Shown: positions 350-20,069 of the stretch, in pieces | Layout of the letters: each line of letters starts with the position of its first letter | Position numbering within the stretch: position 1 is the stretch's first letter | Source: a virus | Virus record (IMG/VR): IMGVR_UViG_3300020416_000864 | Location: 1-21,053 of that record | Strand: one strand, 5' to 3' | DNA length: 21,053 nt | Program-made: the position numbers and the translations under genes | Notes under the pieces: generated by a model | Seen by the model: only the letters and a program-made list of their open reading frames with translations | Databases searched by the model: none | Told to the model about the DNA's origin: nothing

Positions 350-362
350 ACTGATATTTATG
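350..362 (-). promoter_or_regulatory. T4-type late promoter box, leaderless geometry
   Basis: The minus strand reads CATAAATA, then TCAGT, then the ATG at 349. The box matches 7 of 8 bases of the T4 late consensus TATAAATA. With T4 spacing (+1 six bases after the box) the transcript would start on the A of the ATG. No Shine-Dalgarno sequence lies upstream. It sits in the 20-base gap after the preceding gene. Confidence 0.6.
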
Positions 363-369
363 TACGCAG

Positions 370-1029
370 TTATTTACTAGTTGTTGATTTGATACCTTGT
401 ACTTTTGTAAAGTAAGGTTTGTATGCTCGTAACCATGGGCATAATTGTTTGCACATTATAGCATCATTAGGCCACCAACCAACTACGTCTTGTAATTCAC
501 AAACTTCTTTGGCCGCTTCAGGCTTAATAATGTATGCACTGTGTCCTGGTAACCCTTGTGGTATACTTTCATCTGCTACCCAAGGAACTTCTTGTTCACC
601 TGAATCATCTAATTTATTGTATAACTTCCAATTAAAGGTAGCGTGATCAGGATTGTTGATACTAATAGCACCGCCTTCAAAATCAAATGTCTTAAACTGT
701 CTTGTAAAGATTGCATCATGTTCGAGCACCATAATAGGTTGGTTAAGTTCTATTGCTTTCTGCCAAAGTCTATAATGACTGCCAGCGGCCGCAATACGCT
801 TTGTCATATCATATGTTTTGTATGCTTTAAGAGTCATGCCTGTGTTAGGACATTGTTTCTTTTTTGTATATGGCCACTTCCAATTAACTTCCCACATGTT
901 CTCCGGAGTAATAGCATCAAACTTTTGTACATCAATCCAGCTCTTTGTATCTATTATACTTTGTATACAACGGTCTGCATGTAGTTGACTATCCTCATGG
1001 CCTGGGATTGCAATTATAAATGCCTGCAT
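370..1029 (-). CDS. Putative GT25-like glycosyltransferase
   Basis: A 219-residue protein. Residues 1-10 (MQAFIIAIPG) look like the first strand of a GT-A fold. GSHYRLWQKA (83-92) followed by PIMVLEHDAIF (98-108) matches the S-H-x-x-x-W ... ExD region of glycosyltransferase family 25 (LPS-type galactosyltransferases), with E103/D105 as the likely metal or sugar-nucleotide site. A later GHSAYIIKPEAAKE segment is also typical of the family. The start at 1029 is an ATG overlapping the upstream stop (TAATG); an in-frame TTG at 1080 would overlap the upstream gene by about 50 bases and is less likely. It resembles the GT25-like protein at 6207-6776 and is the last gene of the coupled glycan operon. 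Sugar and acceptor are unknown. Confidence 0.7.
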   Translation of the reverse strand: MQAFIIAIPGHEDSQLHADRCIQSIIDTKSWIDVQKFDAITPENMWEVNWKWPYTKKKQCPNTGMTLKAYKTYDMTKRIAAAGSHYRLWQKAIELNQPIMVLEHDAIFTRQFKTFDFEGGAISINNPDHATFNWKLYNKLDDSGEQEVPWVADESIPQGLPGHSAYIIKPEAAKEVCELQDVVGWWPNDAIMCKQLCPWLRAYKPYFTKVQGIKSTTSK

Positions 1030-1616
1030 TACTTTACAACTTTCAATATATAACTGTCTTGTTTTTTCTTGCTTATCCAATCGTGATGTGTGACAGTATA
1101 TCTATTAATAGACTCTAATAACTTATTCCATTTGTCAGATGTAAAATCATTCGCATGACTTTTAATCCAAGGATGATTCATTTTAACTTTATCTAAATTC
1201 CAAACATCTTCTATATAATAGGTGTCTGTAAATTCAATTAAGTTTTCGAAAGTTAGACGTTGAGCTTCTGGAGTATGTAACCCGTCATCGATTATAAAAT
1301 CAAACTTTTGTCCTAGTGCTTTAAAGTGTGCATTACATTCAGCTGAAGTACTATCTAGTTTAGCATATTTTACTCTTACATTGTTCAGCATTGGAAGAGC
1401 TTCAGGAGCAACTCTTTCAAACGTATCAATTGTATAGATATTTGCATTTGTAAAATATTCTAACCATACATTGATGCTTTCACCTCTAAATGTTCCAACT
1501 TCTAAAATATTAATTTGCTTTTGACGAAGTTGTTCAAAATCTGCTTCATATAATTCGCTATAGCTATGCCATATTTTTTCACAGCCATATTTTTTGAATA
1601 GTTGTTCCATTATCAT
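1029..1616 (-). CDS. Class I SAM-dependent methyltransferase
   Basis: A 195-residue protein with a Rossmann-type motif I at 37-47 (ILEVGTFRGES), an acidic residue after the second strand (YTIDTF, 61-66), and FDFIIDDGLH at 105-114. The last motif resembles the region of sugar O-methyltransferases of the macrocin/TylF and cephalosporin-hydroxylase-like group, whose IDD-x-H metal-site residues are seen here. It probably methylates a sugar or glycolipid in the pathway encoded around it, but the acceptor is not identifiable. Its ATG overlaps the stop of the methyltransferase upstream (ATGA), and its own stop overlaps the next start (TAATG), so translation is probably coupled at both ends. Confidence 0.75.
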   Translation of the reverse strand: MIMEQLFKKYGCEKIWHSYSELYEADFEQLRQKQINILEVGTFRGESINVWLEYFTNANIYTIDTFERVAPEALPMLNNVRVKYAKLDSTSAECNAHFKALGQKFDFIIDDGLHTPEAQRLTFENLIEFTDTYYIEDVWNLDKVKMNHPWIKSHANDFTSDKWNKLLESINRYTVTHHDWISKKKQDSYILKVVK

Positions 1617-2185
1617 AGTTGCACCTCAAATTGATCATCATGAAAATTGTTTAGTGTGTAACCTGTGTTATCTATAAATTTATTAACAGCATCTCTTACG
1701 CCTGGCTTTTTAGGTCCATAGTCGTCGCCAAACAATAGTCCACCGGGTTTGATCATACTTACTGCTCTAGTTAAGTCATGTAGGCAACCTTCATAGGCAT
1801 GACTAGCATCTACATAGATCCAATCTAGTTTATCAGGAAATGTGTCAAACCATCGTGCAGTTGACATTCTGTGAATAGTAACTGGACTATTTGCAAAACG
1901 TTTTACAACACCTTCATAAATTTTATTGTAATATTTTTCAAAACCTTCTGTAGTAGCTTCACCTGTAAGTTTTGAATAACGTTCAAGGTATGCATCGTAA
2001 CCACCAAATTCGTTTGAGCCGTTGAAAACTTCTGGTGCCCAAGCATCAACTAAATGAATATGATCAGCACGTTTTAGAAACTTTGCAGAACTATCTCCCA
2101 TCCAAACTCCTAGTTCTGCACCAGTACTGCCTTCGGGTATACGTTTCCATGTTGCATCAGTACCTGGATTCTTTCCAAACATCAT
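1613..2185 (-). CDS. Class I SAM-dependent methyltransferase (Methyltransf_24-like)
   Basis: A 190-residue protein. SAM-binding motif I is GAELGVWMG (22-30), followed by LVDAW (45-49) with the acidic residue expected to bind the SAM ribose. LDWIYVDASHAY (120-131), IKPGGLLFGDDY (145-156) and GVRDAV follow the pattern of Methyltransf_24-type enzymes, which often act on sugars or small molecules. Two ATGs stand together at the start; the first is preceded by AGGAGAG at about 10 bases, one of the few good ribosome binding sites inside the glycan operon, following a 23-base gap. That gap may mark a new translation entry point in an otherwise overlapping chain. Not close in sequence to the methyltransferase immediately downstream, so probably a different reaction. 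Confidence 0.78.
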   Translation of the reverse strand: MMFGKNPGTDATWKRIPEGSTGAELGVWMGDSSAKFLKRADHIHLVDAWAPEVFNGSNEFGGYDAYLERYSKLTGEATTEGFEKYYNKIYEGVVKRFANSPVTIHRMSTARWFDTFPDKLDWIYVDASHAYEGCLHDLTRAVSMIKPGGLLFGDDYGPKKPGVRDAVNKFIDNTGYTLNNFHDDQFEVQL

Positions 2186-2208
2186 AATTCTGCTCTCCTA
2201 TATAATAC

Positions 2209-2895
2209 TTATTTTATCTTTTGTACAAAACCATGCATACTGGTATGTATATCATTTGTCCATTCACTCATTACTTGATACCAACCCCATTCGTTAGGAT
2301 ACAATTTACATTCTTTTACGAGTTGTCTTAGTAATGCACGATTAAAATGTTTACGGTGATGTATCAAAAAATCACATGGTAAAAATCCGTGCCAGTCATC
2401 GTGAGGATTATTTTTATCTACTTCTTCTATATTTCCTGAACCAAATTTAGGTCCTCTATTTGGTCTTGTTAAAAAACCTACTGGTCCTTTTTCATGTGCT
2501 TTACGCAACCAATTATGTAAATCTACTTTGTGATCAATTTGCGTATTCCAATCAACTCTAATAATTAAGTCGTGATGTTCAGGAATTTTTGAAACAATAT
2601 CTGCATGTGCAATCATAGGCGCAATACCAAAATATAAATCATCAAACAATTCTTTTGACTTTACATATTGAGAATATTTGGCATGCTTAGAGGGCGGTTT
2701 AACTTCCATAGGATGATAATGCCATTTTGGATAATGCATTGTGTATAATCTATCATGATACTGTTCTGATATAAGATTTGTTTTATTAGTCCATGTATGA
2801 TAATAAAAATTAGTGCCAGGAAGTTTTTTGCGTAGTTCTTCTACTATATTACTTTGTTTGTCATTTACACCACTGACACATATTGCTATATTCAT
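2209..2895 (-). CDS. Putative glycan-biosynthesis protein (WavE-like candidate)
   Basis: A 228-residue protein that I do not firmly recognise. The N-terminus MNIAICVSGV (1-10) is a strand-turn of the sort opening nucleotide-sugar-binding folds, and DLIIRVDWN (109-117) resembles the D-x-x-I-R-x-R/D segment of WavE-type and related polysaccharide synthesis proteins. Long stretches are rich in His, Lys and aromatic residues. There is no signal peptide or membrane segment. Position inside a chain of glycosyltransferase and methyltransferase genes, with an ATGA overlap to the SGNH hydrolase upstream, argues for a role in the same glycan pathway. The glycosyltransferase assignment is an inference; the gene itself is certain. 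Confidence 0.55.
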   Translation of the reverse strand: MNIAICVSGVNDKQSNIVEELRKKLPGTNFYYHTWTNKTNLISEQYHDRLYTMHYPKWHYHPMEVKPPSKHAKYSQYVKSKELFDDLYFGIAPMIAHADIVSKIPEHHDLIIRVDWNTQIDHKVDLHNWLRKAHEKGPVGFLTRPNRGPKFGSGNIEEVDKNNPHDDWHGFLPCDFLIHHRKHFNRALLRQLVKECKLYPNEWGWYQVMSEWTNDIHTSMHGFVQKIK

Positions 2896-3650
2896 TTAAA
2901 GAACCATTTCATTATGTTCTTTGCAAAATGAACTTGACTTTTTACACCAGGGTGTGGCCTAGTATGTCTTTGTTTATCTAGTCCATCATCAATATGGAAA
3001 TCTTTCATGTGATGAAATGTTTTTGCTTGAAGTGTGTCTATTTTTAAATTATTAAAAACATGTTTATATTTGTTAATAGCATGTTTATTAATTAGATGAA
3101 AGTCTGTTACACCTTTACTTTTCATATATGCGTGTGCATAATTTATCAGCACTGTATTTTCATACACACAGTCATGATCGTAATGATAATCTGTGTACCA
3201 TTGGTGTATTAATCTAGCATAATTATCTTTTTGTTCAGGTGTAAACCCTCTCCAAAATTCTTCAGGCATATGATCTTTATAAATGAATGCTGGCATCATA
3301 TGCAATTTATGGTCACTAAAATTACCACCTATATTTAATCTTGCATTGTAAGGTTTATATTCTTTGAATATAGTTTTACGTTCAAAATTACTCCATAGTA
3401 CAATTACTATTGTAGGTTCATTGAAATTATAATTTACTATTTCATTTAAAATTATTTTATTACTAGCTCCCGGTATACCTTTGTTATCTAGCGTATGAAA
3501 TTTACCAAATGTTTGTAAATGATTTGACCAGGCCATTTTGCTAGGTAAGGTTCCAGGACCTTTTTCATTTACATCTAAGCAATCGGGTAGACCGTGGCCA
3601 AATGTAAAACTACACCCGAATACAACTAATTTATATTTGTCAAGTTCCAT
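2892..3650 (-). CDS. SGNH/GDSL-family hydrolase
   Basis: A 252-residue protein. FGCSFTFGHG (11-20) is block I with the presumed nucleophile S14; NKGIPGASN (56-64) supplies the block II Gly and nearby Asn; VLWSN (84-88) stands at block III; and RPHPG near 231-235, preceded by DDGLD, fits the block V Asp/His. SGNH enzymes are esterases, often sugar O-acetyl esterases or transferases, so this one could remove or move acyl groups on the surface glycan made by the neighbours. No signal peptide, so it should act in the infected cell's cytoplasm or within the virion. It overlaps the sulfotransferase gene by 25 bases and the next gene by ATGA. Confidence 0.72.
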   Translation of the reverse strand: MELDKYKLVVFGCSFTFGHGLPDCLDVNEKGPGTLPSKMAWSNHLQTFGKFHTLDNKGIPGASNKIILNEIVNYNFNEPTIVIVLWSNFERKTIFKEYKPYNARLNIGGNFSDHKLHMMPAFIYKDHMPEEFWRGFTPEQKDNYARLIHQWYTDYHYDHDCVYENTVLINYAHAYMKSKGVTDFHLINKHAINKYKHVFNNLKIDTLQAKTFHHMKDFHIDDGLDKQRHTRPHPGVKSQVHFAKNIMKWFFK

Positions 3651-4306
3651 ACGTTTTTCCTTGCACCTGTATCGAAATCAAAATCCCAATAGTCAATGTC
3701 TTTTTTATACCAGTCAGCAACTTTTTCATAAGTGCTATTGTTATATAAAGTTCTATAGTCTTCCTTTATACTTGTAACATTCCTCGATCTAGGCATTTCT
3801 GTCATGTTAAAGTATTTAAGCACATCTTCTTTTAGATGTTCTACTCGTAATATATCACAACGAACTTTACCGTTACTATCAACAACATGATCTAATTGCG
3901 GGTGCCAACCTCTAATAGCTCTATACCATGTGTATTTTTTATCGATCCATTTGCCACGTTCATATAAAAAATGTTCTAATGATCGTGTGTCAGCATATGA
4001 TGGATCAATATTTCCTCTTTGTACTGCTTCTTTAGCAAACAAATATCTACTAACAACTTTACTCCATGGATTACGTACAACAGCAAATGCTTGATATTGA
4101 TCTGTAATTACACAGTTAACATCTCTCCACCGTGCATGTTCTACTCCTTTAACATCACGCTCGCCATACTCTTTCATAGTATTGTTAAAATCTTTAAAGT
4201 TTGCAATCCATTTTCGATGCACAGGAATAATTTTATTTTGAAACACTTCACTACCACGTATTGTCATGCCTGCATTTTTTGGTATATGTATAAAAAGTTT
4301 TTGCAT
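3626..4306 (-). CDS. PAPS-dependent sulfotransferase
   Basis: A 226-residue protein. FIHIPKNAGMTI (5-16) is the 5'-phosphosulfate-binding loop of carbohydrate sulfotransferases (Sulfotransfer_2 type, IPKxAGxT). AVVRNPWSKVVSRYLF (75-90) is the 3'-phosphate-binding motif, with R78 and S87 as expected contacts. DILRVEHLKED (151-161) and a C-terminal Y..DIDYWDFDF complete a pattern typical of bacterial and marine-phage members. The family moves sulfate from PAPS to a hydroxyl or amine, usually on a glycan. No PAPS-synthesis gene is visible here, so the host would supply the donor. The gene starts in a TAATG overlap with the DUF6165-like gene. Family assignment is strong; the acceptor is unknown. 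Confidence 0.85.
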   Translation of the reverse strand: MQKLFIHIPKNAGMTIRGSEVFQNKIIPVHRKWIANFKDFNNTMKEYGERDVKGVEHARWRDVNCVITDQYQAFAVVRNPWSKVVSRYLFAKEAVQRGNIDPSYADTRSLEHFLYERGKWIDKKYTWYRAIRGWHPQLDHVVDSNGKVRCDILRVEHLKEDVLKYFNMTEMPRSRNVTSIKEDYRTLYNNSTYEKVADWYKKDIDYWDFDFDTGARKNVWNLTNIN

Positions 4307-4683
4307 TAGTATTTTGTATAATCCTTTTCTTCTACAACATCTGAATTTGTAATTACATTAATCATTTTTTTAATTTTAGCACGATCATCATTTTTTATAT
4401 AAACATCTCTTGCTAGTCTAACAAATTTTGCACCAAACATTTTATCAGCTTCGCATTTACGTTTGCTATTTTCTATATCCCAAAGTTGTTCGTTAATTGA
4501 CTCTAATTCTGCAACTAACGCATTAACTTCTGGATCGTTATTAAATGCTTTGCTTTCTAAATATGCAAGTTCTTTATTAACGTTTTCTAGTTGTTCTTTA
4601 TCTGTAAGTTTCTTTTGTTTGATTTTAAGTATAGTAATTTTATCAAATAATTCACCAACAGATACTTCAATTGATACCATCAT
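4306..4683 (-). CDS. DUF6165-like helical protein of glycan clusters
   Basis: A 125-residue protein with the N-terminal block VSVGELFDKITILKIK (7-22), which I recognise as the conserved opening of a small family (DUF6165) usually found beside glycosyltransferase genes. The rest is mostly charged helix, probably coiled coil (roughly residues 15-75). Biochemical function is not established to my knowledge. The start has two adjacent ATGs and lies 17 bases inside the end of the GT9-like gene; its stop overlaps the sulfotransferase start. The position between a GT9-like enzyme and a sulfotransferase makes an accessory or scaffold role in glycan assembly plausible, by inference only. Confidence 0.7.
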   Translation of the reverse strand: MMVSIEVSVGELFDKITILKIKQKKLTDKEQLENVNKELAYLESKAFNNDPEVNALVAELESINEQLWDIENSKRKCEADKMFGAKFVRLARDVYIKNDDRAKIKKMINVITNSDVVEEKDYTKY

Positions 4684-5413
4684 TTATTCTAATCCCGTTG
4701 TCTTTAGCCCTATGCATGTGATGACTCCAGCGGTCTTTAGGACTTAAAGTATATATGTGAATATTCTCTGGAGCAAAATATACTTGAGACATATGTAAAA
4801 ATCCGCTGTCAACACCAACATGATAAGTTGCTTTTGACATTGCATATGCAATATGTTTCAAGCTATCTCTTAATAATACATCTTTTGATTCACCGCCTAC
4901 AATAACAACTTCATAGTCTTTATATTTGTCAAGTATTGCTTGTCGTTGCTTTGGCTTGATCATACGCTTTTTAGATGTACTATCAAATTGTACAGTAATA
5001 AATTTGTTAGGTAATTTGATGTCTTGCGGTTGTGCATCAAGTTGCGGAAAATAACGTAAGTATGCAGTCAAGTCTATACCCTCTTTTGGTTCAAAGCGTT
5101 GGGGATAGTCTGCATAAATTTGTGCATCTGCATTATACCCTCTATCTCTAAGATAGTTTACAAAATCTAGATTGTCTTTAGGTTCATGCTCAAGGTGTGG
5201 CATAACTGCAACACTACCTTTAGGAAACAAACTTAATATCTCAGGCCAACTTTCGGGCTTGTGTCTATTCCATTGATACTTTGTAAGATGCAACATTACT
5301 GAAGTATTTTCCATTAGTCCATAGTTATATGATAGCAATACACTGTGTATTCTATCTCCTAATCCAGGTGCACCGTAATGAAAGTTTTTCTTAACAGTAC
5401 TAAATGCTCGCAT
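4667..5413 (-). CDS. GT9-like (heptosyltransferase-type) glycosyltransferase
   Basis: From the ATG at 5413 the protein has 248 residues. The N-terminal GAPGLGDRIHSVLL (about 14-27) resembles the glycine loop of GT-B enzymes, and EVVIVGGES (168-176) followed by GVDSGFLHM (200-208) is the sugar-nucleotide-binding signature of glycosyltransferase family 9 (ADP-heptose:LPS heptosyltransferases). The protein is shorter than the bacterial enzymes (about 320-350 residues), consistent with a trimmed phage version. A TTG at 5428 overlapping the upstream stop (ATTGA) is an alternative start adding five residues. GT9 suggests transfer to a core-LPS-like acceptor; the actual sugar cannot be deduced. Confidence 0.72.
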   Translation of the reverse strand: MRAFSTVKKNFHYGAPGLGDRIHSVLLSYNYGLMENTSVMLHLTKYQWNRHKPESWPEILSLFPKGSVAVMPHLEHEPKDNLDFVNYLRDRGYNADAQIYADYPQRFEPKEGIDLTAYLRYFPQLDAQPQDIKLPNKFITVQFDSTSKKRMIKPKQRQAILDKYKDYEVVIVGGESKDVLLRDSLKHIAYAMSKATYHVGVDSGFLHMSQVYFAPENIHIYTLSPKDRWSHHMHRAKDNGIRINDGIN

Positions 5414-5424
5414 TGCTAAATGTT

Positions 5425-6210
5425 TCAATTTATTACTCTCATTAAGTCATGAACGTTTTCGCCTTTTTGTGGCAATAAGTCTTTTAGAAAAAAATGTATA
5501 AAATATGCTTTAGGTATTTGTTTGTCATCTATACCTTTGAATAATCCATTCCAACGCCAGTCCATATTCAGTGTAGGAATCTTTTCCTTTTTTACCCAAT
5601 AGTTTAATAGCATTTGATCAGTTGACCATTTACGATAACCTATACCATCAACAAAGTCTTTGAACTCTGGTCTACGTATAAATTGTTCTGCTGTTTGTCC
5701 TTTTAGATATGGTAAAAACTTTTTACTATTAATAACCATCATACCCATGTTATAAAATTCAGCACCTAGTTCGTTCCACTTCCAATCTACGTCTTTTAAA
5801 TTTTCAAATGCCGCTTTAGAATATTTTCTAATCTTTGATTTATATTTTTTGGCACAAGGTAATTCTCTTTCTGCTACTGCACCAAAAGCATACTCTTCAG
5901 TTAAGTCCCAAAAAATATTTGGAGCTTCTTGTCTTATATAAATGTCACTATCTATTATTGCAATTTGTTCGTAGTCGTGTAAGTGTGTAAATGCATTTTC
6001 TTTTTCATATATAGGCATATAACCTAAACGTTCTACTGCTTCCTTGCTTCTACCAGTTCGTGACATATCTGGTCTAATTTTCAATATTGGTTCTCGTTGA
6101 ACAATGTGTTTCATATTATATTTGTTACAATAATTTGCAACACTCTGTATACAGTGTTCGTACAGTTTGCTTTGACTACCAACTGCAACTTGGTAAATCA
6201 TTCTTCTCAT
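5425..6210 (-). CDS. GT-A glycosyltransferase with DxD motif
   Basis: A 261-residue protein. IAIIDSDIYI (83-92) holds the DxD metal/sugar-nucleotide motif (D87, D89) of GT-A glycosyltransferases. NMGMMVINSKKF (154-165) resembles the N-x-G conserved segment of family 8-like enzymes, and STDQMLLNYW (196-205) the D-Q segment that usually follows. A terminal H near IHFFLKD could complete the metal site. The start overlaps the GT25-like gene by ATGA. Fold and general activity are well supported; sugar donor and acceptor are not. It is a different lineage from the GT-A protein at 6766-7626, which shares the DxD and D-Q features but little else by eye. Confidence 0.72.
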   Translation of the reverse strand: MRRMIYQVAVGSQSKLYEHCIQSVANYCNKYNMKHIVQREPILKIRPDMSRTGRSKEAVERLGYMPIYEKENAFTHLHDYEQIAIIDSDIYIRQEAPNIFWDLTEEYAFGAVAERELPCAKKYKSKIRKYSKAAFENLKDVDWKWNELGAEFYNMGMMVINSKKFLPYLKGQTAEQFIRRPEFKDFVDGIGYRKWSTDQMLLNYWVKKEKIPTLNMDWRWNGLFKGIDDKQIPKAYFIHFFLKDLLPQKGENVHDLMRVIN

Positions 6211-6776
6211 TTTAAATCCTTAGTGAAACTTACATTAGTTTTGTATGTAACTTTATTTAATTTATCAAATTTCATGTTGACTATTCCATCGCATAACATC
6301 CAGTCAGCTGGCATAGCACCATGAGTATGTACCCAGTCTAATATCTTTTTTGCACCTGTGGGTGTTATACGATAAGCTCTAGCACCTTCATACCAATTAC
6401 CTGGTGGAATAGGTTTTGCTTTATTAAATCCTTCAAACTTATATACATCACAATCTATATATTCGCCCATTGGCTTTTGAAATACAACATCATGTTCAAA
6501 AATACAAATAGGTGTATTTGTTGTGTGGCATTTTTGCCACAGTAGATATTGACTAAGAAAACAACCTTGTGTTCCTGGTCTTTCTAGTAATCTTTTAGCC
6601 TTTTTGTGTTCGTATGGTTTTATTCTATAATCAATTAATCCTGTGTCTTTACCATTTACACCTTCATATAATTCTAGATTCCAGTTTCTCATTGTACCTG
6701 TTTCTAATGCACGGTTAGCCATACTTACGCTATCAGGATATCCTGGCAAATAAATTATATAACCTTTATTTTCCAT
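6207..6776 (-). CDS. GT25-family glycosyltransferase
   Basis: A 189-residue protein. QGCFLSQYLLWQKC (70-83) then TPICIFEHDVVF (88-99) is the family 25 signature (G-C-x-x-S-H/Q-x-x-x-W and ExD, here E94/D96). GARAYRITPTGAKKIL and PADWMLCDG near residues 129-163 match the later conserved blocks where the acceptor side usually lies. Family 25 enzymes are LPS-type galactosyl/glucosyltransferases. Residue 75 is Gln where bacterial enzymes usually have His. It overlaps the upstream GT-A gene by 11 bases and the downstream gene by ATGA. It resembles the GT25-like protein at 370-1029, so the operon carries two members, probably for successive residues. Confidence 0.8.
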   Translation of the reverse strand: MENKGYIIYLPGYPDSVSMANRALETGTMRNWNLELYEGVNGKDTGLIDYRIKPYEHKKAKRLLERPGTQGCFLSQYLLWQKCHTTNTPICIFEHDVVFQKPMGEYIDCDVYKFEGFNKAKPIPPGNWYEGARAYRITPTGAKKILDWVHTHGAMPADWMLCDGIVNMKFDKLNKVTYKTNVSFTKDLK

Positions 6777-7626
6777 CTTTTATCTTTGCTATCTCTTCTA
6801 AAGTCTTGTGATACAAATCGTTAGGTAACCATTTTAGTTGTGCGGCTTTATATTTTATATCATTCTTTTTATTGCCTTTGCCTGTGCTAAAAATATCATC
6901 TTTCTTTATACCCCAAGCATTCCATTTATACGGAATATTATTATATGGCAGATTGAAATCAACTTTCCATTCACGCACTACGTTTTTTAACACATCTTGA
7001 TCTATATACCAATAGCACCCTTTTTCAAAACCTTCAATAAGCCTTGTTGCAAACAAATCTCTAAATTGCATACCATTAGGTCCTAGTCCTAATGTTAACG
7101 CACTTGCAATAAACACTGATGGATCTTTTGGCTTTGGCATGACTCCTACAAACTTTGTCAAGTCTCTAAACTTCGATTGATGAAAGCCATTACGAAGCAC
7201 ACTATCACAATCAATTTGTAATATGTGTGTGTCTTGATTTTTGAATAATTGATTAAGACGCATAAATCTTACACTTGCAAGATATGTACGTCTAGCAATA
7301 TAATCTATGTCAGCAGTTTTAAATATACTCATTCCCTCACGCATTCTATGTTTATCTTTGCGTAAGTTTACATAGAAGTCTTTGTTTACATCTTCCCAAG
7401 TATATGTAAATTTATTATGTTTAGTAAATTCTTTCAATACATTATGATTAATATTACCTTCATTAATAATATGAACGTGTACATGCATCCAACCTATTGT
7501 ACCAAAAATACTTTTTGCAAGTGCATATCCATGTTTGTAAAAATAGTCGTAGTCACAACTAAAATATATTACATCTTGTTGATGTGCAGGAGAACATTCT
7601 CCTTGTAATGGAGGTAATCTAAACAT
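6766..7626 (-). CDS. GT-A glycosyltransferase (GT8-like)
   Basis: A 286-residue protein. HILQIDCDSVLR (134-145) contains the DxD motif (D139, D141) expected to bind Mn2+ and the sugar nucleotide, and WYIDQDVLKNV (206-216) fits the D-Q segment of GT8-like enzymes. A basic and aromatic-rich N-terminal half with ARRTYLASVRFMRLNQLF (111-128) is typical of the helix before the DxD strand. No membrane segment is seen. The start overlaps the FkbM methyltransferase gene by 8 bases. Glycosyltransferase activity is likely; specificity is unknown. Confidence 0.7.
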   Translation of the reverse strand: MFRLPPLQGECSPAHQQDVIYFSCDYDYFYKHGYALAKSIFGTIGWMHVHVHIINEGNINHNVLKEFTKHNKFTYTWEDVNKDFYVNLRKDKHRMREGMSIFKTADIDYIARRTYLASVRFMRLNQLFKNQDTHILQIDCDSVLRNGFHQSKFRDLTKFVGVMPKPKDPSVFIASALTLGLGPNGMQFRDLFATRLIEGFEKGCYWYIDQDVLKNVVREWKVDFNLPYNNIPYKWNAWGIKKDDIFSTGKGNKKNDIKYKAAQLKWLPNDLYHKTLEEIAKIKDGK

Positions 7627-8296
7627 CTGTTGCTATTCCTGGTCTGTATCCTATAATGGCATTTTTCTCACCTCTGCCTATTTTTCTTATCATTCTATAA
7701 CCAAGTGGAGCAAGTATTTGTCTAATACTATCAGCATGTAGTCCATAACGTTGCGGATGATCTTTACATTCGTATAATATAATAGGCTTACATCTTTCAA
7801 TAGTATTATATCCGCCTTGAGCTACAAAAGGTTCATAACCTTCTGCATCAATTTTTATAAAATCTACATTTTCTAAATTGTAAAAGTCTAAAGGCTTTAC
7901 CGGAATATCACCTTCTCTTTGACTAGGGTGTACATGTGTGCTAAAACTTTTATTTGTAGTTTTTATTGAAACAAATTCTTCTCTTGCACCTAGACCTACA
8001 GGGTATGTTGTTACATTTTCAATATTACGTTTTTTCAAATTATAATCCATACATTCATAAATTTTAGGATGTATTTCAAATGCATGTACATGATCAAAAC
8101 TTCTGCTCATTTGATATGCAGTAATACCTACATGAGCACCGACATCAACAGCAGTGCGCCATTTGGCACAATAGCTCATTGCAGTTACAAGTTCAATGTT
8201 TTGATAATTGTTTATATCTCCATTGCCTTGTTTTTTTGCACTTTTTAAACATATGTCGTTCTTTATAGAACGCCAGCCATCTATTTCATTATACAT
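7619..8296 (-). CDS. FkbM-family methyltransferase
   Basis: A 225-residue protein. AVDVGAHVGITA (49-60) is SAM motif I, HAFEIHP (71-77) the second motif with the acidic ribose-binding residue, and VDFIKIDAEGYE (144-155) the diagnostic FkbM motif, followed by KPIILYEC. FkbM-type enzymes O-methylate sugars and polyketides; methylation in a phage glycan operon would cap or mask a sugar. Two in-frame features support the start: the ATG lies just inside the end of the upstream gene, and the first conserved block begins at a usual distance. Family assignment is strong; the substrate is inferred only from context. Confidence 0.85.
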   Translation of the reverse strand: MYNEIDGWRSIKNDICLKSAKKQGNGDINNYQNIELVTAMSYCAKWRTAVDVGAHVGITAYQMSRSFDHVHAFEIHPKIYECMDYNLKKRNIENVTTYPVGLGAREEFVSIKTTNKSFSTHVHPSQREGDIPVKPLDFYNLENVDFIKIDAEGYEPFVAQGGYNTIERCKPIILYECKDHPQRYGLHADSIRQILAPLGYRMIRKIGRGEKNAIIGYRPGIATDV

Positions 8297-11903: not shown

Positions 11904-11940
11904 AATTTTTGCCTTATAGCTGTGTTGTACTGCCTAAATA

Positions 11941-11965
11941 GTGCATTACTTGTTATATAATACAC
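11941..11965 (-). promoter_or_regulatory. Predicted 5' hairpin in the gp32 late leader
   Basis: GUGUAUUA and UAAUGCAC can pair over 8 bp (one G-U) around a 9-base loop. The first base of the stem coincides with the +1 predicted for the overlapping late promoter. The rest of the 78-base leader is AU-rich and open to the ribosome site, the kind of arrangement used in T4 for gp32 autoregulation. Pairing is seen; the regulatory role is inferred. Confidence 0.45.
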
Positions 11966-11985
11966 TAATCTATTTATAAAGTCAA
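11957..11985 (-). promoter_or_regulatory. Sigma70-type promoter of gp32
   Basis: TTGACT (-35, 11980-11985), a 17-base spacer, and TATTAT (-10, 11957-11962): five of six consensus bases in each box and ideal spacing. It would let host RNA polymerase transcribe gp32 early. The predicted start is near 11950, leaving a leader of about 60 bases. It overlaps the late box. Confidence 0.6.
11965..11978 (-). promoter_or_regulatory. T4-type late promoter of gp32
   Basis: A perfect TATAAATA (8 of 8) at 11971-11978 on the minus strand. With T4 late spacing, +1 falls at 11965, giving a 78-base leader before the gp32 ATG. It lies inside the spacer of the sigma70-type promoter, so the two can hardly be used at once. 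Confidence 0.65.
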
Positions 11986-12001
11986 GTCTTTTTTTGACTT
12001 T
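11978..12001 (+). terminator. Inverted repeat upstream of gp32, plus-strand terminator candidate
   Basis: An 8-bp perfect stem (AAAGTCAA / TTGACTTT) with an 8-base loop, followed on the plus strand by five further T bases. As a Rho-independent terminator it would act on antisense plus-strand transcripts; the stem is A+T-rich, so it would be weak. On the minus strand it lies just after the stop of the 736-residue protein and supplies the -35 box of gp32. Confidence 0.35.
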
Positions 12002-12014: not shown

Positions 12015-14225
12015 CTATCTTAGTCCTGCTAATTGCTGGATTCTAGCCATTTCTTCTTCTTGCCCTTTGAGTAATGTTGCCATTACTTGCTGAGCTTCAT
12101 CAACCATCTCTTCACCGTACTGCTTTTGTACTGCTGTCAAGACCGCTGTTTCACCCTTAGGAAAGCCATTAGTTGTATAATCATAATAACTCTTAATGAA
12201 CTCTTCTAGTGGAATCTCGTTCTTTTGCTTCAATTCGTCGCCGTTTCCTTTTGGACTAATATCGATTGTTGTAGCATCTGTATTATTTTCTCTTGCTTTT
12301 TCGTCATCTCCAAACATCATTTGGAATACTTTATAACCACCTAGCAATAATGCAACTACTGCGGCCGCTGGTAGAGCATACTGTTTACCCATTGCTACTA
12401 CTTTGTCCAAATTTGGAATGTTATCTAATGCTCCTGCCGCCATATCTTTTAGTTCGTCTGCTGTATTTGCTACTTTAGTACCAGCATTCTTAATAACTTC
12501 ACCTGCTTTTTGCATTGCATCGTCTGCTTTACCTACAAGCTCGCCTGCTCCTTTTACTGCATCAACTCCAGTACCAACAACGTCAGCCGCGCCTTTTGCT
12601 AAATCCATTGTGTCTTGTGGATTAGTCGCCGCTACTGCGCCAACTCCTGCTTTAACTGGATTCTTAGCTGACCAACCTAATATGTTTTTTGCACCTTTCA
12701 TCATTCCTGGTAATACTCTAGGAGCAACTGTTCTTAGTGCCGCACCTGCCGCTGGTATTAATAATCCAAGTAATGGTAGTGCTTCTTTCAACTGTTGATC
12801 TTCTGCTGTCAGTTCGTCTGTACGTTTGCCTAAAATCTTTTCTGCATTAAGTTTGCTCATTGTAGTTTTATACTTTTTACCTGCAAACATAAATTCTTTA
12901 TCACCTTTAGATGCCGCATCAGCCGCACACTGTTTAAACTTTTCCCATATAGCTTGTTGTTCTTCTGCTGTCATCATTTGTCTTTCCTCTGGTCCTTGTT
13001 CATGTTTTGATTGTGCAATGATTGCATCTAGTTTTTCAGCATATGCTGTTTGTGGATCAACAACTTCGTAATTATATTTTTCTTTATCTTTCTTTGCCAT
13101 GTACTCCTCAACATCATCAGGATCAAATCCCAATTTTTCACATGCATGATCAAAAGCATCTTCTGGTTCCATTCCTTTATCTACTAAATCCGCTCTCATT
13201 TTAGAAATCATTGGCAAGTGCTTTTCCATATCTGCTGAATGTGCATCCATGTCTTCACCTAGTTTTTCTAGATCAACTTCTTGTACCTTATTTGCTTCAC
13301 TTACAAGTTTGTATATGTAAGGAAATACACCTTTAAGTTCTTCGTTGAACTGTTTAATTGTAAGTTCGTCGATCCAAGAATTTGAAACATCTTCTGGAAC
13401 TTCTTCTAGCACGGTTGTTTCAAAGTTCTCAAATGCTTCTTTATAATATGCTTTGCGTTGTAAAGACTCAAATGTCTTTTTTACTGTTGCTAATCTTTCA
13501 TTTACAACGTCCATGTATCCTGCTAAACCTTCAGCCATTACACTTGAGCGATTCATGTATGTCTTAAATTTACGCAGTTTATTCATTTCTTCTGACAAGC
13601 CAACAATGTGCTTACCAAAATCATCATATGCATTTCCGCCTTCTGATACGTGCATTGCCATTGCTCTTGCACCATTCATATGTCTTAGCGGATATTTAAA
13701 TCTTTCGCCGTTTTCACTTTCAATATAAATGCTGTGTACATTCTGTGTACGCCCTGCCGCATTCTCATGATTTACTGGTCCAGCGTGTTTAACAATTAAT
13801 CTTGCTGACCCAATATCTTGGTAACTAGTTCTGCTAGTACCGTACATTTTTGATTCGCTCATTTGTTTCTCCGTGCTTAGATATTCGTAATCTCTTTTGT
13901 CTAAGTTTGATTTTGTTATATCTCTTGTATCAAAATTAAGCATTCTCTTTTTAGCAAACACTCTTAGTTCTTTCAATAAATCAAACCATTTACTTTTTAA
14001 CGTTGTTTCGTCTTCTGAAAATAAATCCTGACTATACATAACTGTTAACGCATCTTCATCTATACTTATACTAACTTTTTTGTCTTTAGCAAAGTCAAAT
14101 TCAAAAAATCTTGCTTCACCTGGCTTATTAGTAATAGTGGCTTTGTCATCTCCTACTGTAATATTAGGAAATCTGCCGCGGATTTTGTTAAAAAGTTCGT
14201 CTGCAATAGTCTCAAGGTTTTTCAT
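12015..14225 (-). CDS. Large protein of unknown function with membrane-active-looking C-terminal half
   Basis: From the ATG at 14225 the protein has 736 residues; a TTG at 14240 is the only in-frame alternative and lacks support. I recognise no family with confidence. Residues 1-480 look soluble and helical. Around 483-505 there is a hydrophobic Leu/Ala stretch, then a long Ala/Gly/Lys amphipathic region (about 520-600), then a clear candidate membrane span around 617-633 (ALPAAAVVALLLGG), then a charged tail. The pattern fits an internal virion protein released with the DNA, or a membrane-associated assembly factor, by inference. It lies directly after gp17, whose stop codon overlaps its late-promoter box; it has no ribosome binding site and is probably leaderless. 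Confidence 0.85.
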   Translation of the reverse strand: MKNLETIADELFNKIRGRFPNITVGDDKATITNKPGEARFFEFDFAKDKKVSISIDEDALTVMYSQDLFSEDETTLKSKWFDLLKELRVFAKKRMLNFDTRDITKSNLDKRDYEYLSTEKQMSESKMYGTSRTSYQDIGSARLIVKHAGPVNHENAAGRTQNVHSIYIESENGERFKYPLRHMNGARAMAMHVSEGGNAYDDFGKHIVGLSEEMNKLRKFKTYMNRSSVMAEGLAGYMDVVNERLATVKKTFESLQRKAYYKEAFENFETTVLEEVPEDVSNSWIDELTIKQFNEELKGVFPYIYKLVSEANKVQEVDLEKLGEDMDAHSADMEKHLPMISKMRADLVDKGMEPEDAFDHACEKLGFDPDDVEEYMAKKDKEKYNYEVVDPQTAYAEKLDAIIAQSKHEQGPEERQMMTAEEQQAIWEKFKQCAADAASKGDKEFMFAGKKYKTTMSKLNAEKILGKRTDELTAEDQQLKEALPLLGLLIPAAGAALRTVAPRVLPGMMKGAKNILGWSAKNPVKAGVGAVAATNPQDTMDLAKGAADVVGTGVDAVKGAGELVGKADDAMQKAGEVIKNAGTKVANTADELKDMAAGALDNIPNLDKVVAMGKQYALPAAAVVALLLGGYKVFQMMFGDDEKARENNTDATTIDISPKGNGDELKQKNEIPLEEFIKSYYDYTTNGFPKGETAVLTAVQKQYGEEMVDEAQQVMATLLKGQEEEMARIQQLAGLR

Positions 14226-14238
14226 ATTAATATTTATC
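14226..14238 (-). promoter_or_regulatory. T4-type late promoter box, leaderless geometry
   Basis: GATAAATA, then TTAAT, then the ATG at 14225. The box overlaps the gp17 stop codon (TGATAAATA). The five-base spacing puts the predicted +1 on the A of the ATG. No Shine-Dalgarno sequence is present. Confidence 0.6.
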
Positions 14239-15817
14239 AATAACCGCTAACAAATATAGGCATGGGCGGTTCGTATTGCTCCTCTCCTTCAGCTTGTGTA
14301 AAGGTGTTATATATGCGTGGATCCCAGTCTCGCATAACAGCCATCATACGCAGAGCCAGTAAAGTAGCACTGACCAAGTCATCATTAGCTCCCGGTTTTG
14401 CTTTGAAACTTGTTCCTGTTGCTACATAGTTCTTTAATTCAGTTATAAGTGGTCCACTATTAATAGTTATTTTATTATTTTCCACCATAGTTTTTAATCT
14501 ACTACATGCAGTAATTTTTGTACCATGTGTAGTATTGAATCCTTTACGGAATTTGCGTACATGTCCTTTACGCTGTGGCTCACTTACAAATAGTCCTGGT
14601 ATGTTTTCTTCTCCAAAGTCGTTTATAACAATAAGTGCGGCTTCTCCAATGCTATTGTTTTCTACGCTCCAGTATATATTACTACCGTTGGTTTTACAAC
14701 TATCTTGTATATGAGTACATACATCTCTTAATATTCTAATTTGTGCAGGTATAGGTGTTTCATTATGTCGCCATTCTGCTATTTGTTTATAACTAGGTAA
14801 TTCATACACTTGTATTGCGGCATAGTCTCCTCCTGTTCCCATTGCAGGATCAAGTGCTACAGCATAACTTTGATCTGCTGTAGGTTTGCCGTACCAGCGT
14901 GTTTGACCCATATTCATTAAAGGATCAGATGCTTCCATCTGTGCAAGATGAATACTGTTAATTAGTGTTTCATCATATACTAGAAATTCGCAACCGTATT
15001 CACGTCTAAACTTTTCTTCACCAATACGTCCAATTTCTTCTATTTTCCAAGTTTCATCTCTATCAGGATGTTCGTCCCAACCACATGTAAATCCATGAAA
15101 GCCGTTTTGTCCTACTTCTTGTTCATTGCCATGTGCATCGTATTTGTTCTGAGATTCTTTCCAAATTACAGCAAAAGTATCTTCATCTGAGTTTGGTGTA
15201 CTTGTTATAATTGCACGACCACCTGTTGCTAATGTAGGAGATATAGAAGTCCAAAATTCTTCTGCAATATTAGGATTAACAAACGCAAACTCATCACAGT
15301 ATAGTAATGATATAGACATACCACGTCCTGTATTGCCTGTAGTTGTTGCACTTACAATACGTGAGCCATTTTCAAATTCCATACTTCCTTTGTTATAGTT
15401 TGTAACACCTGCTCTAATATGATCTTCACAAGATTCATATACATAACGAATACGTTGCATAATTTCTTGAGCACCAGTATATTTGTGAGCGGCAATAAGA
15501 ACAGTTTGATCAGGATGGAACATAGCATACCAACACAAATAAATTGCGGCAGTAGTAGTCTTACCTGTTTGTCTAGGTAACATGTTTACATTAAATCTAT
15601 GATCGTGATAACTTTTTAATAAACGTACTTGGAATTCGTAAGGTTCAAACAGCAATTTTCCTTTGACAGGATGCTGAATGTATGCAAACTTTCTAGCAAA
15701 ATGTAAATATCCTGATTCAGGATCTATGCACTTTGCTAAATCTTCTAATTGTGCATCTGTAAATGTTTCAGTTTTATTGGCTTTTTTAATTAATACGCCA
15801 TCTAAAGAAGTACTCAT
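14237..15817 (-). CDS. 17: Terminase large subunit gp17
   Basis: A 526-residue packaging motor, shorter than T4 gp17 (610) at the N-terminus. A Q-like FEPYEFQ (58-64) precedes Walker A PRQTGKT (81-87); Walker B is ISLLYCDEFAF (169-179) with D175 and catalytic E176; the coupling motif is TSTPN (205-209). The C-terminal RNase H-like nuclease domain shows D323 in ALDPAMGTG, D331, E386 in SVENNS, and D479/D480 in NDDLVS. It cuts concatemeric DNA and pumps it into the prohead through the portal, together with gp16. The gene starts 5 bases from a late box, right after a strong terminator, so it probably has its own leaderless transcript. Very confident. Confidence 0.97.
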   Translation of the reverse strand: MSTSLDGVLIKKANKTETFTDAQLEDLAKCIDPESGYLHFARKFAYIQHPVKGKLLFEPYEFQVRLLKSYHDHRFNVNMLPRQTGKTTTAAIYLCWYAMFHPDQTVLIAAHKYTGAQEIMQRIRYVYESCEDHIRAGVTNYNKGSMEFENGSRIVSATTTGNTGRGMSISLLYCDEFAFVNPNIAEEFWTSISPTLATGGRAIITSTPNSDEDTFAVIWKESQNKYDAHGNEQEVGQNGFHGFTCGWDEHPDRDETWKIEEIGRIGEEKFRREYGCEFLVYDETLINSIHLAQMEASDPLMNMGQTRWYGKPTADQSYAVALDPAMGTGGDYAAIQVYELPSYKQIAEWRHNETPIPAQIRILRDVCTHIQDSCKTNGSNIYWSVENNSIGEAALIVINDFGEENIPGLFVSEPQRKGHVRKFRKGFNTTHGTKITACSRLKTMVENNKITINSGPLITELKNYVATGTSFKAKPGANDDLVSATLLALRMMAVMRDWDPRIYNTFTQAEGEEQYEPPMPIFVSGY

Positions 15818-15830
15818 ACTACTATTTAAC
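15818..15830 (-). promoter_or_regulatory. T4-type late promoter box of gp17, leaderless geometry
   Basis: GTTAAATA, then GTAGT, then the ATG at 15817. Its upstream edge touches the U-tract of the terminator at 15831-15857, so terminator, promoter and start codon are packed into about 45 bases. No ribosome binding site. Confidence 0.55.
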
Positions 15831-15857
15831 CAAAAAAATAGGCACCGTAGTGCCTAT
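15831..15857 (-). terminator. Rho-independent terminator before gp17
   Basis: On the minus strand, ATAGGCAC, loop TACG, GTGCCTAT, then a run of T. The 8-bp stem is perfect, the UACG loop is unusually stable, and the T tract is canonical. It ends the gp16-to-glycine-zipper transcription unit 30 bases after the last stop. Confidence 0.88.
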
Positions 15858-15886: not shown

Positions 15887-16243
15887 TTATACCCAGCCGT
15901 CGCCGGTAATTTTATCGCCTATTGCGCCGCCAAGCATGCCGCCTGCCATACTACCAATAGGTCCTAAAGGTGCACCTAGCATATGTCCTGCTACTGCGCC
16001 ACCTACTCCCCCCAGTACTCCTGCATTTAGATCTTGGTCCCCATCAACATCATCTTTACCTGGATTTTCTGGATCGTCCATTTTTGCAGTTTGTACAATG
16101 CTAGGTTTAAGTCCTGCGTTAGTCATTAACTTCATAAGTTCACCAACATCATCACATGTTTCTGCGTTCATGTTGATGCTAACGCTAGCCGCTTCGTTGA
16201 CTGGGGTACTAATTTTATCTAGTTTCTCCAGTAAATCACGCAT
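15887..16243 (-). CDS. Glycine-zipper protein, shorter paralogue
   Basis: A 118-residue protein. An N-terminal helix (1-10) leads to EAASVSINMN (17-26) and a helical segment to residue 46, then an acidic spacer around DDPENPGKDDVDGDQDLNAG (56-75), then a Gly/Ala-rich region (75-114) with GxxxG-type spacing typical of glycine zippers. It is a paralogue of the 234-residue protein directly upstream: the two match through the N-terminal helix pair and at 16 of 20 positions in the spacer. I know no characterised family for the N-terminal part. Glycine zippers usually mean tight helix packing in membranes or oligomers, so a virion or membrane-inserting role is possible. Near the end of the packaging operon. 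Confidence 0.82.
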   Translation of the reverse strand: MRDLLEKLDKISTPVNEAASVSINMNAETCDDVGELMKLMTNAGLKPSIVQTAKMDDPENPGKDDVDGDQDLNAGVLGGVGGAVAGHMLGAPLGPIGSMAGGMLGGAIGDKITGDGWV

Positions 16244-16246
16244 GAC

Positions 16247-16951
16247 TTAACCTTTGTATTCTTTGTATAACTCGGAAAGTTCTTCTTTGATCTTACTTGC
16301 TAGTGCCATTGGATTATCTCCGCCTGCTACTTTTGGATAAGATTTTTTTGGTCTATTGATGTCGTCACCACCTTTGATCATATCAGTGTATGGTGCATAA
16401 TCTTCGTCCGGTGAGTTTGAATAATCGCCTTCTTTTGCTTCATCGTCACTTAGGCTTTTACCAACTGCTCCACCTAATGCTGAACCAACTACTCCGCCAA
16501 TTCCTGGTGCTATCATGTTACCAGCAATATTACCAAGTGCTGAACCTGCCGCGCCACCTACTCCGCCGCCGCCTGCTAGTGCACCTAATGCTCCACCTAC
16601 TGGACCGCCTGTCAATCCTGATCCTACTGCTGATCCTACTCCAGTGCTTAATGCACCTGCTTTAAGATCTTGGTCTCCTGGAACATCATCTTTGCCTGGA
16701 ATCTTTGGATCATCGTCCATTGCTCCTAATGCTTTCATATGCTTTTCCATATCCATTCTTGGACTTAGTGGCATATCACTTACTTTTTGTGGCTCCATTC
16801 CAGCATTACGCATCATTGCCATAAGCTGACCAACTTGACCAGCATCATCAGCTGTCATAGAAATATTCATTGAAGCCGCTTCATCTAGTTTTTGTTTTTT
16901 GCTAGGTGCTTCTATAGCATCCATTTTAGCAATCATGTCTTTTATGTTCAT
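16247..16951 (-). CDS. Glycine-zipper protein, longer paralogue
   Basis: A 234-residue protein with the same plan as its neighbour: short helix (1-12), EAASMNISM (24-32) with a following helix to about residue 51, acidic spacer (80-99), then an extended Gly/Ala region (98-165) containing several GxxxG and GGxxG steps and no charged residue for about 65 residues. After this come an acidic Ser/Asp/Tyr segment and a C-terminal helix (LASKIKEELSELYKEYKG at 217-234). The hydrophobic part could form two or more packed membrane helices. The gene starts in a TAATG overlap with the upstream stop, after GGGAG. Function unknown; location between gp16 and gp17 suggests a role in head filling, ejection or the prohead. 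Confidence 0.85.
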   Translation of the reverse strand: MNIKDMIAKMDAIEAPSKKQKLDEAASMNISMTADDAGQVGQLMAMMRNAGMEPQKVSDMPLSPRMDMEKHMKALGAMDDDPKIPGKDDVPGDQDLKAGALSTGVGSAVGSGLTGGPVGGALGALAGGGGVGGAAGSALGNIAGNMIAPGIGGVVGSALGGAVGKSLSDDEAKEGDYSNSPDEDYAPYTDMIKGGDDINRPKKSYPKVAGGDNPMALASKIKEELSELYKEYKG

Positions 16952-17524: not shown

Positions 17525-17538
17525 ATAAATTATTTATC
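17525..17538 (-). promoter_or_regulatory. Late promoter box in the end of gp16
   Basis: GATAAATA made of the last codons of gp16 (Asp-Lys-stop). Unlike the leaderless group, it leaves about 14 bases of leader, containing AAGGA, before the ATG at 17511. Confidence 0.5.
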
Positions 17539-18035: not shown

Positions 18036-18049
18036 TACTATTATTTATC
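18036..18049 (-). promoter_or_regulatory. Late promoter box of gp16
   Basis: GATAAATA, then ATAGT and a predicted +1 A at 18036. The box overlaps the gp4 stop codon. A 21-base leader with GAGAG follows before the ATG at 18015. Confidence 0.55.
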
Positions 18050-18479: not shown

Positions 18480-18482
18480 GGG

Positions 18483-18860
18483 TTACCCCATTATGTTTCT
18501 TGACTCTAACGGTGTATCAGTATTTTTAACTCTGAATCCTAATGTACTAACTTTTTGTCTATTAAAGTTTAAAACAGTAGCCACAGTAAAACTTAGTTGT
18601 AATTTATCTAAACTTTTTAATGTATCTAATAATTCAAAAACTTTAATACCGTCAAGTTTTGCTTGTTTCATTAAAATAGCACCTGTTGATTGTGCCGCAG
18701 GTCTATCAAAACCTTTTGATTCTAAAAAACCAATAACAGCATCTACCTCATTAGCCGGGTATGCAAGTTGTTTTTGATAAAAGGTATTAAAATATCTTTT
18801 TACCTTACTTGCACTTGAACTATCTTTTTTGACAGGTAAATTTAATTGTACTTTATCCAT
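18483..18860 (-). CDS. Small conserved structural-region protein
   Basis: A 125-residue protein with a predicted helical middle: a helix with NEVDAVIGFLESKGFDRPAA (about 37-56) followed by LMKQAKLDGIKVFELLDTLK (63-82) and a C-terminal NFNRQKVSTLGFR (98-110). I recognise this pattern from small proteins sitting next to the tail or head genes of marine T4-like phages and usually listed as structural; no biochemical role is known to me. The start overlaps the upstream stop (TAATG) with AGGAG 10 bases before. It could correspond in role to a T4 baseplate or neck factor that has diverged beyond recognition. Confidence 0.72.
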   Translation of the reverse strand: MDKVQLNLPVKKDSSSASKVKRYFNTFYQKQLAYPANEVDAVIGFLESKGFDRPAAQSTGAILMKQAKLDGIKVFELLDTLKSLDKLQLSFTVATVLNFNRQKVSTLGFRVKNTDTPLESRNIMG

Positions 18861-20056
18861 TATGTTACTTCTCCTGCTGGTGCTCTAGGACCACTTGTTG
18901 AATTGGCACTTGCACTGCTAGCCTGTGAAGTTAAAGCACCGCTATTCATAAAATCATTTACTAATTTTCCGCCTCCAACTACTGCGGCCGCAGTTGCTAT
19001 TGTCGAAAGACCACCACCGCCACCTCCAGTTGGTGTGATTACACCTGCTACTCCACTTACATCAATGCCTGCTGTTTTACCAATTGTATCAATTGCACTA
19101 CCAAGTAATTCTCCACCAATTCCACCTTGTGTTAGGTTTCCTGCATTTTGAATTGTATTAGCCGCTTTTAAAACAGTACCAAATGTTATACCATTATTTG
19201 CAATATCTCCTAGTACACCCATACCACCTGCAAGTACTCCTCCTACTCCTAATAGACTAGAAGCACCTCCACCAGATAATGAATTTGGACTAGGTGTTTT
19301 ATCATAATGCTCTTCAGCAAATCCTTTAGGTCCACCTTTGCCTACAGTTCCTCTGCTATAATGAACTGTTTCATAGTCAAGTGTCATTGTATTTGATACA
19401 GTATCACTAACGCTGTTATCCATAGTATCATGTTGCCAATTTGATATAATAGGATTTATTAATGTAAAGGATGTATAACTTTTTCTTGCCATCTGTGAAA
19501 TTGTAATACTATCAAAGAAAGGCATTCCGCTATCATTGTCTAAACCATATCTAAATTGCTTGTCACTAAATTGGCTACCTCTGTTATATGCTTCAATAGA
19601 TGCACCTGTTTCTGGTGCTCCTGCTGGTTGCACTGCGGCATAGTTTCCGTCTCTATAGTAGTATCTATAATATGCTTCCCACATAGCAGTTGTAACACCA
19701 AAATTATCATCGTGGAATGTAATGTTTACAGGTTGATAATCAATACGTTTTTGTACTACTCTTTTTCGATTGTATTGATGTTTTACATCTGTCTGAATAT
19801 TATATGCAGGTAATTGAGCAGACTTAACAAGCATGTTAAGTTCGTTCATATGTTTTTCCCTTAGCTGAGGTATAACAGATGCCGCTTGTGAATTTATGTT
19901 AAATGTTACATGATATAGAAACTTTACTTTTGGAGTAAGTCTATGATTATCATCTACATAAAGTCTAGCCGCGTGTTGATAGTCAGCAAGGTTACCTTTA
20001 GGGTTCAGTGCCCCTGATATTACGTTGTCTAAAAATCCATTCAAAAAGCTCGCCAT
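18860..20056 (-). CDS. Tail-tube-like baseplate protein with Gly-rich tail (gp48/gp54 type)
   Basis: A 398-residue protein. The N-terminal 250 residues hold a tail-tube-like domain: KFLYHVTFNI (45-54), LNMLVKSAQLPAY (73-85), the basic KRVVQKRIDYQPVNITFHDD segment (99-118) and AMWEAYYRYYYRDG. This is the beta-sandwich shared by gp19 and the T4 baseplate-tube proteins gp48 and gp54, so the likely role is starting or capping the tube at the baseplate. The last 140 residues are Gly/Ala/Ser-rich with hydrophobic stretches, unlike T4 gp48 or gp54, and could be a tape-measure contact or a membrane-touching tip. The start has a late box 5 bases upstream and no ribosome site. Tube-fold call is confident; gp48 versus gp54 is not settled. 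Confidence 0.78.
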   Translation of the reverse strand: MASFLNGFLDNVISGALNPKGNLADYQHAARLYVDDNHRLTPKVKFLYHVTFNINSQAASVIPQLREKHMNELNMLVKSAQLPAYNIQTDVKHQYNRKRVVQKRIDYQPVNITFHDDNFGVTTAMWEAYYRYYYRDGNYAAVQPAGAPETGASIEAYNRGSQFSDKQFRYGLDNDSGMPFFDSITISQMARKSYTSFTLINPIISNWQHDTMDNSVSDTVSNTMTLDYETVHYSRGTVGKGGPKGFAEEHYDKTPSPNSLSGGGASSLLGVGGVLAGGMGVLGDIANNGITFGTVLKAANTIQNAGNLTQGGIGGELLGSAIDTIGKTAGIDVSGVAGVITPTGGGGGGLSTIATAAAVVGGGKLVNDFMNSGALTSQASSASANSTSGPRAPAGEVT

Positions 20057-20069
20057 ACTAATATTTAGC
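20057..20069 (-). promoter_or_regulatory. Late promoter box, leaderless geometry
   Basis: GCTAAATA, then TTAGT, then the ATG at 20056. It lies 33 bases after the terminator at 20103-20127, so the following gene needs its own promoter. No ribosome binding site. Confidence 0.55.

Follow-up and report, generated by a model that had tools for sequence, protein, structure and literature searches.

Probable fusion of late promoters to start codons and predicted leaderless late mRNAs in a marine T4-like virus

The virus record IMGVR_UViG_3300020416_000864 of the IMG/VR database provides, at positions 1 to 21,053, a 21-kb fragment of a T4-like virus. We analyzed this whole stretch of 21,053 nucleotides (nt), referred to as the window, for late promoter boxes of the sequence TAAATA and their distance to start codons. 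Nearly all genes of the window lie on the minus strand. They encode a gp19-type tail tube, a 398-amino-acid (398-aa) protein of the tail-tube family, a head-closure protein, a gp16-like protein, virion proteins, the large terminase gp17, a 736-aa virion protein, gp32 and UvsX. A block of genes for proteins resembling sugar and methyl transferases is also present; these transferases and UvsX were named from sequence alone.

Four late boxes five nucleotides before start codons

In the following, k is the number of nucleotides between a TAAATA box and an ATG, and N5 stands for k = 5. An exact TAAATA-N5-ATG was present only four times in the window, each time on the minus strand and at a gene start. 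The first site (347–360, spacer TCAGT) consists of a box at 355–360 and the ATG (347–349) of a HldE-type nucleotidyltransferase gene (phrog_7878, 2–349) that is truncated at the window edge. At the second site (14223–14236, spacer TTAAT), the box (14231–14236) immediately follows the gp17 stop codon, and the ATG (14223–14225) opens the gene of the 736-aa virion structural protein (phrog_13484, head and packaging, 12015–14225). The third site (15815–15828, spacer GTAGT) combines a box at 15823–15828 with the ATG (15815–15817) of gp17 (14237–15817). The fourth (20054–20067, spacer TTAGT) has its box at 20062–20067 before the ATG (20054–20056) of the 398-aa tail-tube-family or tube-cap-like baseplate protein (phrog_13438, 18860–20056). 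All four genes are predicted to give leaderless transcripts.

A first-pass annotation of this DNA had described TAAATA, five bases and ATG at four genes that lack a Shine-Dalgarno (SD) sequence. We recovered exactly these matches, and all four ATGs open real genes. An SD sequence was absent at each of them and present at the neighboring gp19, uvsX and 190-aa genes. The annotation had further held that identical spacing in four unrelated genes is unlikely to be a coincidence. Chance occurrence might be considered in AT-rich DNA, as the window has a GC content of about 36% and contains 25 TAAATA hexamers. However, only 0.76 N5 sites were expected, and none of 100 dinucleotide shuffles reached four or more. 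Given also that the spacing is conserved in many loci and in 26 orthogroups (see below), the probability of a chance origin is negligible.

Spacing and start codons in related viruses

We collected 80 gp17 relatives from IMG/VR, together with the full sequence of eight longer contigs, and counted TAAATA-Nk-ATG wherever the ATG opened an open reading frame (ORF). Across the 80 loci, k = 5 accounted for 185 sites and k = 4 for 42, with most other values of k being much rarer. In the eight contigs and the window, the distance between box and ATG was bimodal, i.e., 55 sites at k = 5 and 13 at k = 4 were followed by about three per position at k = 6–13 and about 11 per position at k = 14–30. To allow for relatedness, we also counted orthogroups in place of sites and obtained 26 at k = 5, 10 at k = 4 and 0–6 at each other k below 14. 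The gap at k = 6–13 corresponds to leaders too short for an SD sequence, and the hump from 14 nt onwards to room for SD leaders.

The spacing is not lost in homologues but retained in orthologues of all four genes. For gp17, k was 5 in 57 of 79 orthologues, 4 in 15 and 7 in three; for the 736-aa protein it was 5 in 52 of 79, 4 in 12, and 7 or 8 in 15. HldE-like genes had k = 5 in 22 of 27 cases and k = 4 in one. Among 50 orthologues of the 398-aa gene, 35 had k = 5, and the spacing was kept down to about 40% protein identity. Seven others combine an SD sequence with a box 19 or 30 nt before the start, as in L046, L033 and L040, and the gp17 gene of L080 has no box and has gained an SD-like GAGG. 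Since the box was lost or moved where an SD sequence was gained, the two modes of gene start replace each other. Beyond the window, an orthogroup of small cysteine-rich proteins of 112 aa (MRPLCKCG...NYYKNGKPFYRSKCESC), found, e.g., on the minus strand of G003 near position 146,630, has boxes at a spacing of 4 or 5 nt in 23 loci.

The lack of SD sequences extends to the relatives. None of 123 unique upstream regions in the four families reached a duplex energy of −6 kcal/mol or below with the anti-SD sequence, compared with 97% of the uvsX and 100% of the gp19 upstream regions. Moreover, the N-termini of all four families are conserved directly after the methionine (SLDGVL, KNLETI, FLNGFLDN and VLVTGGFDPLHSGH). 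In gp17, SLDGVL is conserved from residue 3–5, and in the HldE-like enzyme MDVVLVTGGFDPLHSGH is conserved straight from the methionine. We hence conclude that these ATGs are the true start codons.

Transcription start signals and the leaderless reading

In T4, the late box occupies positions −13 to −6 (PMC1524935; PMC2988020), which puts the predicted +1 at the sixth base after the box, i.e., at the A of the N5 ATGs. In the sequence logo of the N5 class, the −1 position was T (0.74) or C (0.18) and never G (0.00), with pyrimidines in 92%. No −35 signal was found in this class, as no column was conserved from −35 to −14. The TAAATA core itself served as the search term and therefore shows no variation; the two bases upstream of it are degenerate. 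Start preferences can be read without the constraint of an ATG in promoters that are followed by a leader. Here, the sixth base was A in 14 of 16 gp19 and in 12 of 16 gp16 promoters, mostly preceded by a pyrimidine.

Such leadered genes form a second late class in the window. Their boxes stand on the minus strand 19 nt before the gp19 ATG (20794–20799, with the SD sequence AGGAG), 26 nt before the 161-aa gp16-like gene (18042–18047) and 19 nt before a 186-aa virion gene (17531–17536). A further minus-strand box lies upstream of gp32 (11971–11976), about 83 nt before the start if gp32 begins at the ATG at 11887, which gives a leader of about 78 nt. With +1 at the sixth base, the predicted leaders of these four genes span about 14–78 nt. 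This agrees with the range of 13–78 bases in the first-pass annotation; the ribosome site that it assigned to each of them is weak at the gp16-like gene, where the mean duplex energy among orthologues was −3.5 kcal/mol. As controls, all 45 gp19 orthologues had k = 15–26 and an SD sequence, and uvsX orthologues had an SD sequence and lacked the box in 58 of 59 cases.

Some further features of the window were noted. The gp32 box and leader (11887–11990) adjoin an inverted repeat AGTC...GACT, and regulation through this leader is possible. Two adjacent proteins (15887–16243 and 16247–16951) have similar N-termini (EAASxxIxMxAxxxxxVGxLMxxMxNAGxxP) and glycine-rich cores and are probably tandem paralogues. 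About a dozen glycosyl- or methyl-transferase-like genes (370–9513) have overlapping stop and start codons, few SD sequences and starts without late boxes; this gene run is probably translationally coupled.

TAAATA resembles a weak −10 element, and the host sigma factor is always present. The box could thus be part of an ordinary sigma-70 promoter of early or middle genes, in which case the transcripts would be leaderless all the same. However, there is no −35 signal, and the late genes of the leadered class carry the same hexamer upstream, whereas none was found at uvsX or the adjoining 76-aa gene. The N5 genes are mostly virion genes, and more generally the boxes stand upstream of late virion genes, i.e., gp17, gp19, the gp16-like gene and the virion and tail-tube families. 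The window itself, being a 21-kb fragment, contains no gene for the late sigma factor gp55. By tblastn, however, we found gp55 homologues in the four long relatives G001–G004 (E-values of about 5e-10 to 2e-11), as well as in HTVC008M, S-PM2 and PA5oct. A T4-type late sigma factor is therefore at hand in these relatives, and we regard a sigma-70 promoter as very unlikely.

Two of the four genes would be shielded from upstream transcription. An intrinsic terminator on the minus strand (GGCAC-TACG-GTGCC, then TATTTTTTT, 15832–15854) lies directly upstream of the gp17 box and was found in 38 of 52 unique gp17 upstream regions. Its stem ends 21–25 nt before the ATG, and an independent gp17 mRNA therefore has at most about 14 nt before its start codon. 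Between gp19 and the 398-aa gene, a second minus-strand terminator (GGGCCTACGGGCCC, then TTTTTTT, 20103–20123) was found, and 32 of 40 unique upstream regions of the 398-aa family contain one. No upstream terminator was found in the HldE-like, 736-aa, gp19, gp16 and 186-aa families.

The terminators also bear on whether TAAATA-N5 might be a translation signal, i.e., an AU-rich site for the ribosome or protein S1 on longer readthrough transcripts. AU-rich starts without an SD sequence can be translated via S1, and a fixed distance to the ATG is what such a signal would show. Yet the same hexamer occurs 14–30 nt away from the start in late genes that do have an SD sequence, and readthrough towards gp17 or the 398-aa gene would be stopped by the terminators shortly upstream. 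Moreover, where two genes diverge with 26 bp between them, readthrough from one cannot serve the other. A translation signal is thus highly improbable.

Such divergent genes occur in HTVC008M, where only 26 bp separate the ATGs of the DNA end protector and head-closure genes, each with its own TAAATA at 5 nt. A normal SD leader is too large for this gap. Divergent pairs are hence a prediction of leaderless transcription that can be tested outside the lineage of the window, and we scanned all of IMG/VR for CAT-N5-TATTTA-N4-TAAATA-N5-ATG. The pattern was found in 82 stretches, of which 64 had ORFs of at least 60 aa on both sides, representing 21 gene-pair types. With N6 in place of N5, we found 14 stretches, three of them with both ORFs, and with N4 only three stretches.

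The chief alternative is that these are real late promoters that initiate 1–5 nt upstream of the A, leaving a very short leader without an SD sequence. Orthologues with the box at 4 nt or at 7–8 nt, and 30 sites at k = 6 in relatives of HTVC008M, would fit such starts. They are opposed by the sharp peak of the spacing at 5, by the pyrimidine almost always present at −1 with the A of the ATG at +1, by the preference for A at the sixth base of the leadered gp19 and gp16 promoters, and by the counts of divergent pairs. We consider initiation upstream of the A to be unlikely.

We therefore propose that late promoters are fused to the start codons of the four genes and very probably give rise to leaderless late mRNAs. 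The 5′ end is placed at the A of the AUG only from the spacing, the initiator and the divergent pairs, i.e., from sequence features. That +1 is this A, and that a leaderless and an SD-leadered late class exist side by side, had been suggested in the first-pass annotation. Both gain support from the conservation and bimodality of the spacing, the lack of SD sequences, the terminators, the initiator and the divergent pairs.

Several observations weigh against this proposal. Some orthologues deviate from the 5-nt spacing with 4, 7 or 8 nt, so that either the start site shifts by 1–3 nt or some mRNAs have a leader, of about 3 nt at most. The promoters of the 186-aa family point to the fifth base rather than the sixth as the likely +1. 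In a simple tblastn search, the gp45 clamp of HTVC008M gave no match in the long contigs of the window clade. Finally, the 736-aa protein is possibly also translated from the gp17 mRNA by reinitiation.

In the proposed mechanism, the phage sigma factor gp55 would read TAAATA as −10 box, and RNA polymerase would start at the sixth base, the A of the ATG. All four N5 genes of the window (HldE-like enzyme, 736-aa protein, gp17 and 398-aa protein) would then give primary mRNAs that begin with 5′-AUG and have no leader. Presumably, a 70S ribosome carrying the initiator tRNA would recognize the 5′-terminal AUG. The same sigma factor would drive the second late class (gp19, gp16 and the 186-aa gene), where a box at least 14 nt upstream leaves space for an SD leader. 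The benefit is probably compactness, since promoter and start signal would share 14 bp. This would allow a gene to follow immediately on a stop codon, as the 736-aa gene does, or on a terminator, as gp17 does, and two genes to diverge with a gap of 26 bp.

The first-pass annotation had suggested another purpose, namely that terminase and structural proteins are kept up when host initiation changes; this is possible but unsupported, and compact gene starts account for the data more simply. In a more specific form, the leaderless late genes would be a dedicated translational class, with ribosomes altered by the phage or by infection, e.g., carrying a phage bS21 protein, favoring 5′-AUG mRNAs in the course of infection and so setting a separate schedule for terminase and selected virion proteins. 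We regard this as quite improbable. Genes for ribosomal protein bS21 were located in one long relative (G002:C1:23004-23159, L247) and in HTVC008M (L222:41228-41431). bS21 is present in HTVC008M, PA5oct, Atu_ph07, Phosso, Vibrio phage 2.275 and one contig of the window clade; the nine remaining contigs, some of them incomplete, lack it. As its presence does not track the N5 class, we rejected phage bS21 as an explanation.

Distribution among phages and comparison with known systems

HTVC008M has 12 TAAATA-N5-ATG starts and no more than three at any other k. They include gp48 (tail-tube cap), head closure, DNA end protector and baseplate wedge genes, and its relatives contribute 126 sites at k = 5. 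Four N5 sites were found in P-HM2. An N5 peak was not found in T4, S-PM2, Syn9 and PA5oct, nor in the 400 kb of Atu_ph07 analyzed. By gp17 identity, PA5oct, Atu_ph07 and Phosso are nearest to the window clade (49–53%), followed by HTVC008M (33%) and S-PM2 (32%). The occurrence of the N5 class in two distant lineages, while the nearest of the few isolates sampled lack it, suggests repeated evolution, perhaps driven by the host. N5 sites are entirely missing from phiM12 and Cr30, phages of Sinorhizobium and Caulobacter, respectively, and an alphaproteobacterial host was therefore rejected as the driver. As a possible sign of leaderless genes in SAR11 hosts, TATAAT-N6-ATG was counted over whole genomes and was only slightly more frequent than in the reversed control (155 vs 115).

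Leaderless mRNAs and T4 late promoters have both long been known. We found no report of a systematic fusion of T4-type late promoters to start codons in the literature searched, which excluded most subscription papers, and no description there of HTVC008M late genes as leaderless. In a study of pelagimyophages, late promoters could not be predicted by a standard search (PMC7029224). If our reading is true, many virion genes in a broad group of marine T4-like phages begin without a ribosome-binding site, and the calling of gene starts and late promoters in these genomes will change. Orthologues that are leaderless in one phage and SD-leadered in another under one box would be a natural set to study leaderless translation in marine bacteria.

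Compared with the T4 late promoter, which depends on gp55, gp33 and gp45 and has TATAAATA at −13 to −6, the boxes described here share the TAAATA core, the lack of a −35 element, the position before late virion genes and the presence of gp55 in relatives. They differ in that one gene class has the box 5 nt from the ATG, a compact gene start that T4 and most T4-like isolates checked do not have, and in that the first base or bases of the 8-bp box are degenerate. With known leaderless mRNAs, i.e., lambda cI and the bacterial TA-led genes (PMC3160421), they have in common a −10 element about 10 bp from the start codon, the AUG and the lack of an SD sequence. In contrast to these, a phage late sigma factor would be used here for many virion genes, the arrangement is conserved across phage lineages, and an SD-leadered class coexists under the same box. 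The closest likeness is found in the late genes of pelagiphage HTVC008M with their N5 starts and divergent 26-bp pair, although its record places this phage with the cyanophages (Kyanoviridae) and its N5 spacer favors GTANT rather than TTAGT.

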